Below, in pieces: positions 9,372 to 11,793 of a stretch of DNA of 64,000 nucleotides. The stretch's first letter is position 1. The number at the start of each line of letters is the position of its first letter. A model generated the notes under the pieces. The model ran no database searches, was not told the DNA's origin, and worked only from the letters and a program-made list of their open reading frames with translations. The translations under genes and the position numbers were made by a program. The stretch comes from Reyranella humidisoli (lineage in GTDB: Bacteria; Pseudomonadota; Alphaproteobacteria; Reyranellales; Reyranellaceae). The stretch lies in the NCBI RefSeq assembly GCF_019039055.1, contig NZ_JAHOPB010000001.1, positions 1 through 64,000 of the forward strand, given 5' to 3'.

Positions 9372-9554
9372 GCGCAGTCCCTCAGCCGCCGTTCTTGATG
9401 TTTGCGACGTGCCGAACTGCAGCGTCTCGCAAGACTTCACCTTTATGTGAACAAGTTACAGTGGAAACGCAATATGATGTAAGGTGGCCTTAAGCTGGCA
9501 ACGATATCAGTGCCCCAAGATCGATCAAGGACGGTCCGCGGGCCAGTTTTCGCA

Positions 9555-10577
9555 ATGAAAGATGCAGTGTCTCCCTCCGCCCTGAACCTCTTCCATGAAG
9601 AAGACGCCGCCGATCGCTGGCTGCCTCTGGTTCGCCGCGCCTTGCGCAGGACGAAGCCGTCCAGCGGAAGTTTCCAGAGCTTCCAGAACCTGTGCGCCGG
9701 CCTCGATCACCTCGGCATACCCTATCGGGTGAACAACTACGCGCATCTGCGTCGCCATCCCGGCGAGATCGCCTGCGTCATCGGCAAGCCGCCGGTGCTG
9801 GACAAGATCCCCTGCGGCACGCCGATCGTGTTCGGGTCGGCGGGCTACGACCATCCGGTCGACGATCCCACACTTCTCTCCGATCACAACATCCGGGGCG
9901 TGCTGGTGCCGTGCGAATGGGTCCGGAAAATGTGCGAACCCTACTGGGGCATGAAGGTGCATGCGTGGGCCGAGGGTTTCGACACCGAAGGCTGGAAGCC
10001 CCTGCCCGGCGCCGTCCAGGACATCGACGTCCTGGTCTGCGACAGGATCCGTTGCCATCCCGAGCGCGATCGCCCGGCGGTCCGCGATCCCATCGTCCGC
10101 GACCTCGAGGCCCGCGGCCTGCGCGTTGCCACCTTCCGCCACGACGGCGGACGCGAGGAACAGTTCCGCGCCCTGCTCGCCCGTGCGCGCTCGATGGTGC
10201 TGCTGAGCGAGCATGAGACCCGGGGCGTTGCCCTGCGGCAGGCCCTGTCGTCCGATGTTCCCGTCCTCGCCTGGGACGCCGGCGGCCTATGGCAGGATAC
10301 CCGCTACCATCCCCATCGCGTTCAGTTCGGCCCCGTGACCTCGACTCCCGACTGGGATGACCGCTGCGGGATGAAGTTCCGCGATACCGACGACTTCGGC
10401 GCCGTCTTCCCGCGCTTCTGGACGGGCGTTCTCCAGCAACGATTCGCGCCCCGTGCGCATGTGCTGGAAAATCTGACCCTGGAAGCCGGCGCACGCCGTT
10501 ACGCCGACCTCGTGCATCGCCTGAACTTCGGTGCCCTCGACCGGGAAGAGCCGGCAGACTGGCTAAAAGCTGCCTGA
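9555..10577 (+). CDS. Glycosyltransferase-like protein (GT-B type)
   Basis: A 340-residue protein (355 if the GTG at 9510 is used; neither start has a strong ribosome site). The C-terminal half has the usual GT-B donor-site arrangement: LLSEHETRGVALRQALSSDV followed by PVLAWDAGGLW, like the E-x-x-G-L-x-L-x-E-A-L motif of family-1 glycosyltransferases. The N-terminal half has IPYRVNNY and a VPCEWVRKMCEPYWG stretch typical of glycosyl transfer proteins. No signal peptide. Donor and acceptor are unknown. It lies alone upstream of tRNA-Arg. Confidence 0.6.
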   Translation: MKDAVSPSALNLFHEEDAADRWLPLVRRALRRTKPSSGSFQSFQNLCAGLDHLGIPYRVNNYAHLRRHPGEIACVIGKPPVLDKIPCGTPIVFGSAGYDHPVDDPTLLSDHNIRGVLVPCEWVRKMCEPYWGMKVHAWAEGFDTEGWKPLPGAVQDIDVLVCDRIRCHPERDRPAVRDPIVRDLEARGLRVATFRHDGGREEQFRALLARARSMVLLSEHETRGVALRQALSSDVPVLAWDAGGLWQDTRYHPHRVQFGPVTSTPDWDDRCGMKFRDTDDFGAVFPRFWTGVLQQRFAPRAHVLENLTLEAGARRYADLVHRLNFGALDREEPADWLKAA

Positions 10578-10643: not shown

Positions 10644-10720
<77 letters not shown>

Positions 10721-10771: not shown

Positions 10772-10945
10772 CTACGTGCTGGTCTTGCTCCGGGCGCCTC
10801 GCCCCCGGCCGTCGTTCGCGCCGCGACCGCCGACCGACAGAGTGATGTCCGTCAGTGTTCCCAGACGCTGGAGCACAGGCGCCACGTAGGCTCGCTTGGC
10901 CGCCGGGGCCGTGGGTCGGGCATCGGTCTCGAATACGTCATTCAT
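10772..10945 (-). CDS. Lasso-peptide-like RiPP precursor (orphan)
   Basis: A 57-residue peptide. Residues 20-35 fit the lasso leader motif Y-x2-P-x-L-x3-G-x5-T (Y20, P23, L25, G29, T35), the element recognised by the RiPP recognition protein in lasso pathways. If T35 is the penultimate leader residue, the core begins at S37 and an aspartate falls at core position 9 (D45), the usual place of the ring-closing acid; the tail is rich in Gly and Arg. The start is the ATG at 10945 with GAGGT six bases upstream; a longer frame to 11110 lacks support. No asparagine-synthetase-like cyclase, leader peptidase or exporter is nearby, so maturation is unproven. Many proteobacterial peptides with this leader are likewise orphans. 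Confidence 0.6.
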   Translation of the reverse strand: MNDVFETDARPTAPAAKRAYVAPVLQRLGTLTDITLSVGGRGANDGRGRGARSKTST

Positions 10946-11163
10946 GGCGTACCTCACAAACACTTGCCGCAGCGTCATCGAGCCCCGGCCACCACATTCT
11001 AGAAAAGATCGCCCCCGCTGTCCCGTTCTTCGAACGGCCGAAGCCGGACCGCATTGACACATTCGCATCCGGCGACTGATGTAGCGCCTCTGCAAACCGG
11101 GGACGCCCAAGAGCTTCGCCGGACCGGCACCGTCCGTCAGTGCAACAGTCAGGGATTCCCCGC

Positions 11164-11793
11164 GTGACTCCGACTTTCCTGAACGACTTCTTCTACGAGT
11201 TCGTCACGCTCTTCGTCATCCTCGATCCCATCGCCACGGTGCCGATCTTTCTCATGGTCACGGCCGGCCTGGACCGCAAGAGAGCGCTCCTGGTGGCGGC
11301 CTATGCGGTGGGCGTCGCCTTCCTGATCCTTCTGTTCTTCATCGTCGTGGGACGGCCGCTGCTGTCGGCGCTTCACATCCCGATGTCCTCGTTCCAGTTG
11401 GCGGGATCGATCGTGCTGCTGCTGTTCGGCGTGAAGATGGTGTTGGGCAAGGTGACGGAGGACGCGCTCAGCATGCCCGATGATGCGACGCCGCTTCAGC
11501 GCGCGGTCTTCCCGCTGGCGGTTCCCGGCATCGCCGGCGCGGGCGCGATCCTGACCGTCGTGCTGCTGACCGACAACAACGTCCGCTCGTTCGGCGAGCA
11601 GGTCACGACGACGGCCATCCTCGCGCTCTGCCTCTTCCTGCTCTTCGTGGCCTACGCGCTGGCCGGAACCCTGTTCCGCCTGCTCGGCAAGCCCGGCATC
11701 GAGATCGTGAGCCGCGTGTTCGGCCTCATCCTGTCGAGCATCGCCGTCACGGGACTGATCGTCGCCATCAAGCTGAGCTTCGGCCTCGGCTGA
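11164..11793 (+). CDS. MarC-family integral membrane protein
   Basis: A 209-residue, six-helix inner-membrane protein of the MarC family. Typical features are the N-terminal FVTLFVILDPIATVPIFL helix, the AGSIVLLLFGVKM helix and the PLAVPGIAGAGAILTVVLL loop and helix. The family has no settled function despite its name from the multiple antibiotic resistance locus. The GTG at 11164 is favoured, with CAGGGA upstream; a GTG at 11140 would add eight residues. It converges on the adenylate cyclase gene, with only three bases between stops. Confidence 0.85.
   Translation: MTPTFLNDFFYEFVTLFVILDPIATVPIFLMVTAGLDRKRALLVAAYAVGVAFLILLFFIVVGRPLLSALHIPMSSFQLAGSIVLLLFGVKMVLGKVTEDALSMPDDATPLQRAVFPLAVPGIAGAGAILTVVLLTDNNVRSFGEQVTTTAILALCLFLLFVAYALAGTLFRLLGKPGIEIVSRVFGLILSSIAVTGLIVAIKLSFGLG

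Follow-up and report, generated by a model that had tools for sequence, protein, structure and literature searches.

Among described systems, the closest to the gene reported here are lasso-peptide precursors (NF033521), including those of the split-B systems of paeninodin, pseudomycoidin, and BsfA. The gene lies in the genome of Reyranella humidisoli, and its peptide shares with these precursors the leader spacing, a short core, and an Asp at ring-closing distance; as in split-B lasso systems, the genome has B1 (PqqD), B2, a cyclase, an HPr-type kinase, and a nucleotidyltransferase. Adjacency of precursor and enzymes is typical of lasso clusters but not chemically required, and lasso genome mining usually seeks precursors beside the cyclase. 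Unlike known lasso precursors, the gene studied here stands alone, megabases from the enzymes. It also differs in that core position 1 in Reyranella is mostly Ser, Thr, or Ala rather than Gly, that the ring class GxxGxxDG(G) hardly varies, that its own tail is rich in Gly and Arg, and that some relatives carry Asp at core position 10 (Asp10). The usual lasso ring comprises 7-9 residues; a 10-residue ring would fall outside this range.

Precursors encoded apart from the modifying enzyme have been described for two other RiPP groups, heterocycloanthracin and prochlorosin (PMC4603692). Reyranella resembles these systems in its scattered precursors and distant enzyme set; however, their chemistry is of the azole or lanthionine type, whereas Reyranella has lasso machinery, including clusters without an adjacent precursor. 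Citrulassins are lasso peptides with an arginine deiminase encoded outside the cluster (PMC12971885), and thus also have one pathway component elsewhere in the genome. In citrulassins the distant component is a tailoring enzyme, whereas in Reyranella it is the precursor, plus the B2 peptidase for one of the two clusters (cluster B, below). The literature search returned no description of lasso precursors dispersed in this way, nor of lasso clusters lacking a precursor, an absence that is not proof, and no paper treating lasso peptides in Reyranella in substance. The peptide family is known; what is unusual is the dispersed organization, the precursor-less clusters, and the single conserved ring class.

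The precursor gene and its locus

The window, i.e., the whole stretch of 64,000 nucleotides that was analysed, opens a contig of 3.8 Mb; the genome totals 5.5 Mb. The features that bear on the precursor gene are as follows.

10772..10945, minus strand: precursor peptide gene, 57 aa, from translation; ATG at 10945, stop codon at 10774-10772
10952..10955, minus strand: Shine-Dalgarno GAGG, 6 nt 5' of the ATG; conserved in genomes G034, G015, and G068
10841..10888, minus strand: leader recognition motif Y20-V-A-P23-V-L25-Q-R-L-G29-T-L-T-D-I-T35, from the sequence
10775..10837, minus strand: predicted 21-residue core SVGGRGANDGRGRGARSKTST, beginning after Thr(-2)-x
10811..10837, minus strand: predicted macrolactam ring Ser1-Asp9, with the linkage inferred from Asp at core 9 or 10 in 83/83 homologues and Ser, Thr, or Ala at core 1 in 56/62
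10781..10783, minus strand: tail Thr at core position 19 (T55), near-invariant (at least 90% of 28 aligned precursors)
10644..10720, plus strand: tRNA-Arg(CCG), found by ARAGORN; flanks the precursor gene
11140..11793, plus strand: marC neighbour (PF01914), from the genus search; anchors the orthology of the locus

Translation of the minus strand at 10772-10945 yields the 57 residues MNDVFETDARPTAPAAKRAYVAPVLQRLGTLTDITLSVGGRGANDGRGRGARSKTST followed by a stop. The original prediction had claimed a Y-x2-P-x-L-x3-G-x5-T leader, a Ser at core position 1, an Asp at core position 9, and a Gly/Arg-rich tail without bulky residues. All were found as described: the leader residues are Y20, P23, L25, G29, and T35, the core residues are Ser37 and Asp45, and the Gly/Arg-rich tail contains no aromatic residue. 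Counted from the core, the leader reads Y(-17), P(-14), L(-12), and T(-2), a spacing that is the rule in experimentally studied lasso leaders (PMC10368454). The NCBIfam model NF033521 (lasso RiPP family leader peptide-containing protein) matched the peptide narrowly, at 19.4 bits against a cut-off of 19; no Pfam model matched it. Cores of 17-22 residues are typical of the short precursor type in Reyranella, and that of the window has 21. Its Ser1 belongs to the known lasso first-residue types (Gly, Ala, Ser, Cys, and others), and an Asp within core positions 7-9 is present in the window peptide (Asp9) and in its three orthologues. A core beginning at Gly3, which would give a 7-residue ring, is less likely; it would shift the Thr to position -4 and is not common to the Asp10-type precursors.

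The gene lies about 50 bp from the tRNA-Arg, on its downstream side, and is divergent from marC. The peptide occupies the same marC-flanking site in four genomes: that of the window, G034, G015 (R. aquatilis), and G068. Start and stop have the same position relative to the core in all four orthologues, and the cores differ at one to four positions. In diverged orthologue pairs, dN/dS was about 0.05-0.2 in the leader motif and core, and higher, about 0.3-0.5, in the N-terminal extension; the leader motif and core are thus under purifying selection. Judging from the conserved ATG, Shine-Dalgarno, and site, together with the low dN/dS, the gene is genuine and not a chance ORF. A chance ORF or a wrong start is ruled out by the conservation of start, Shine-Dalgarno, and core across the four species, and longer TTG-start versions are ruled out by a stop codon three codons 5' of the ATG in R. 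aquatilis. Genome G025, whose marC is 89% identical, has no peptide at the marC site, and neither a B2 nor a cyclase was found in that genome.

In relatives, the tRNA-Arg(CCG) has the appearance of an integration site. The exact 3' 48 nt of the tRNA, and nothing more, lie near the peptide in G034 and G068 (L072:4369-4416; L214:1502-1549). In R. aquatilis, a 4.8-kb segment (L075:4962-9973) separates the tRNA from the peptide and encodes a thiolase, an SDR, and a lasso cyclase with its own precursor. On the upstream side of the tRNA, the window encodes a conserved 355-aa protein (9510-10577, plus strand) with no Pfam match; it is 81% identical to a protein at the same place in R. aquatilis.

These surroundings would suit a decaying remnant of a lasso cluster that was once inserted at tRNA-Arg and is no longer expressed, given the integration-site appearance of the tRNA and the lasso cyclase with its own precursor beside the R. 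aquatilis orthologue. Such a remnant is highly improbable, however, because dN/dS is low in the leader motif and core, and the start and Shine-Dalgarno are intact in four species.

Lasso enzymes elsewhere in the genome

The original prediction had noted that neither a lasso cyclase nor a protease is encoded in the window, and had proposed a genome search for lasso cyclases, PqqD-like proteins, and a transglutaminase-like peptidase. All matches to PF00733 (cyclase family) and PF13471 (B2) indeed lie elsewhere in the genome, and all three kinds of protein were found. A genome empty of lasso genes had been named as evidence that would count against the precursor; instead, two lasso-type loci are present. 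Genome-wide, there are two cyclase loci, one B2, two PqqD proteins, an HPr-type kinase, and NTP_transf_5, so that B1, B2, and cyclase all occur within the genome. Both lasso-type clusters are on the window's contig, 2.04 and 3.70 Mb distant, and the nearest cyclase on the contig is 2.045 Mb from the window gene; the gene has no lasso enzyme adjacent to it.

Cluster A (C1, about 2.054-2.064 Mb) contains two precursors, a PqqD, a cyclase, a B2 peptidase, an HPr-type kinase, and a nucleotidyltransferase (PF14907), and further holds two dioxygenase-like genes and an ABC transporter. Its precursor cores are of the form TI(S/F)F..GNRDGR, with Asp10. The B2 of this cluster (C1:2.058 Mb) is the only one in the genome and matched NF033537 at 78.8 bits against a cut-off of 33. 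Cluster B (C1, about 3.713-3.717 Mb) contains a cyclase (3.714 Mb), a PqqD, a precursor, and a nucleotidyltransferase; no B2 peptidase was found in it. The core of its precursor is TVGSRGNNDGGRLSGRKSTRA, in which TVGSRGNNDGG closely resembles SVGGRGANDGR of the window core; this is the closest resemblance among the cluster cores of the genome. Upstream of cluster B (L017:8711-9400) lies an apparently broken HPr-type kinase, a shortened ORF with two stretches homologous to the kinase of cluster A.

The PP-loop motif SGGLDS is invariant in eight aligned cyclases, which begin MFA.. where the N-terminus is visible and lack the glutaminase Cys; another member of the asparagine-synthetase family in the genome begins MCG. 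The cyclases are read as the lasso type because they start with MFA rather than MC and keep SGGLDS, as expected. Their best family match was NCBIfam NF033535 (lasso cyclase), at 186-197 bits and thus below its cut-off of 525; this is an exception-level model built on cyanobacterial proteins. All 33 of the B2 homologues compared share Cys73 and His107. A PDB sequence search returned only distant relatives of asparagine-synthetase type for the cyclase, and none for B2. Where present, B2 is found once per genome, including genomes with two or three cyclases; B2 must therefore already act in trans for cluster B. Cyclase matches with one internal TGA were also seen (G031:C22, G027:C129, G035:C83, G029:C26, G080:C62, G063:C104, and G005:C76).

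Conserved cores, orphan precursors, and precursor-less clusters

Core conservation was followed across 61 Reyranella genomes with a profile (A3) restricted to the 21 residues of the leader, the downstream residues then being read off. The search gave 83 distinct strong precursors, 74 with Asp at core 9 and nine with Asp at core 10; none of the strong matches lacked both, and one Asp10 peptide also has Glu2. Homologues that keep the leader and lose any core Asp or Glu, which the original prediction had said would speak against it, were thus not seen among the 83, and the conserved core acid it had looked for was. Circularity, whereby Asp is found since the profile contains it, is ruled out, as the leader-only profile gave the same answer. 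At E<=1e-4, sampled genomes of the same class outside the genus gave one match, and the profile is considered specific because this match belongs to a genome with a real lasso cluster. In an earlier search set (n=62), core 1 was Ser, Thr, or Ala in 56, Gly3 was present in 50, Gly6 in 52, and a Gly after the Asp in 57. The ring sequence is unusually uniform across paralogues (GxxGxxDG), and several paralogues end in Trp, Tyr, or Phe. Many relatives have Thr or Lys at core 1, residues with no match among the experimentally observed first residues in the literature searched. In some Acidobacteria, similar cores adjoin cyclases (e.g., L234, KVGTSGRLDGGRG...), indicating that the ring class also occurs outside Reyranella. 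Precursors of the cluster A type at L016:9981-10595 and in its relatives L071, L073, L074, and L079 combine Asp10 with a C-terminal TGRGG extension.

The presence of the peptide tracks that of the machinery across the genus, which favours the original suggestion of a precursor served by distant enzymes. Peptide and cyclase occur together in 37 of the 61 genomes and are both absent from 20; three genomes have only the peptide and one only the cyclase (Fisher p = 5.5e-12; p = 1.6e-10 for peptide and B2; relatedness ignored in both). The three genomes with a peptide and no detected cyclase (G017, G021, and G079) are fragmented assemblies, with the matches on contigs of 3.8-10.4 kb. Genome G068 has the marC-locus orthologue together with a single cyclase, of the cluster A type and on another contig. 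Among 85 precursor places, 39 are within 3 kb of a cyclase, 25 are unjudgeable, and 21, in 13 genomes, are secure orphans, each flanked by 8 kb or more of contig in either direction; the count of orphans is a minimum. In G003, the leader has degenerated in the cluster-adjacent precursor (L096:9936-10166), where Arg replaces Gly and Ala replaces Thr(-2); the orphans of this genome remain intact, which looks as though they had assumed its role.

In R. massiliensis (a single contig), G036, and G062, a kinase-B2-cyclase-PqqD-nucleotidyltransferase cluster has no adjacent detectable precursor. The gap between the PqqD and nucleotidyltransferase matches, the precursor's site in other species, is only about 60 bp in these clusters. 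In R. massiliensis, the distances from cluster to precursor are 8.7 kb, 2.68 Mb, and 2.84 Mb; the precursors of G036 and G062 are on contigs other than the cluster's. Provided that no precursor lacking this leader escaped detection, only distant genes can feed such clusters, and the scattered precursor genes are likely to be their substrates. These clusters are the strongest evidence that orphans like the window peptide are substrates.

The same observations bear on whether the peptide is instead a leader-bearing small protein with a non-lasso role, such as a PqqD-binding regulator or a decoy that titrates B1. An orphan gene in a window without the enzymes, with a uniform core, would be compatible with this role, which is nevertheless very unlikely: a regulator needs only the leader, yet Asp is kept in the core of 83/83 homologues and the core is under purifying selection. 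Moreover, without the orphans, the enzymes of the three clusters lacking an adjacent precursor have no detectable substrate.

A proposed pathway in trans

The window gene very probably encodes a lasso-peptide precursor that is matured by enzymes acting in trans, and the mature product would presumably be a threaded lasso. First, a PqqD-type B1 would bind the YxxPxL leader motif; the B2 transglutaminase-like peptidase of cluster A would then cleave after residue -1. An asparagine-synthetase-like cyclase, of cluster B or A, would join the Ser1 amine to the Asp9 side chain, giving a 9-residue ring, S-V-G-G-R-G-A-N-D, and the tail GRGRGARSKTST. The window core resembles that of cluster B and may point to its cyclase, yet the genome with the G068 orthologue has only a cyclase of the cluster A type. 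As a last step, the conserved tail Thr may be tailored by the clusters' HPr-type kinase and nucleotidyltransferase, which might give the tail its missing bulk. The C-terminal Ser in paeninodin and pseudomycoidin provides the analogy that makes this Thr a plausible candidate site (PMC8498205).

Several findings count against the lasso reading: aromatic residues that could lock a thread are absent from the tail, many relatives have Thr or Lys at core 1, some relatives have Asp10, three genomes have a peptide and no detected cyclase, and the cyclases score below the NF033535 cut-off. The lasso enzymes might process the peptide, with leader removal and an Asp-amine macrolactam, and still release an unthreaded, branched-cyclic product with a signalling or surface role. 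The Gly/Arg-rich tail without aromatics agrees with such a product, as does the uniformity of the GxxGxxDG ring, which is unlike diversifying antimicrobial cores. It is an unlikely outcome, however, since the cluster components all match known lasso pathways, tailoring of the tail Thr could add bulk, and several paralogues have aromatic C-termini.

Beyond the lasso precursor itself, we tentatively consider a wider picture, possible though doubtful, in which Reyranella would have a genome-wide in-trans system: a single leader peptidase, together with between one and three cyclases, would serve dispersed precursors that all have the ring class S/T/A-x-G-x-x-G-x-x-D-G. Some cyclases would then close a ring of 10 residues (Asp10), for which there is no precedent, and what they make would be a conserved peptide family rather than diversified antibiotics.

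In sum, at least 21 secure orphans in 13 genomes and three empty clusters indicate that the genus keeps its substrates scattered. If this is confirmed, "empty" lasso clusters elsewhere may also have distant substrates, and the GxxGxxDG ring class would represent an uncharacterised product family.
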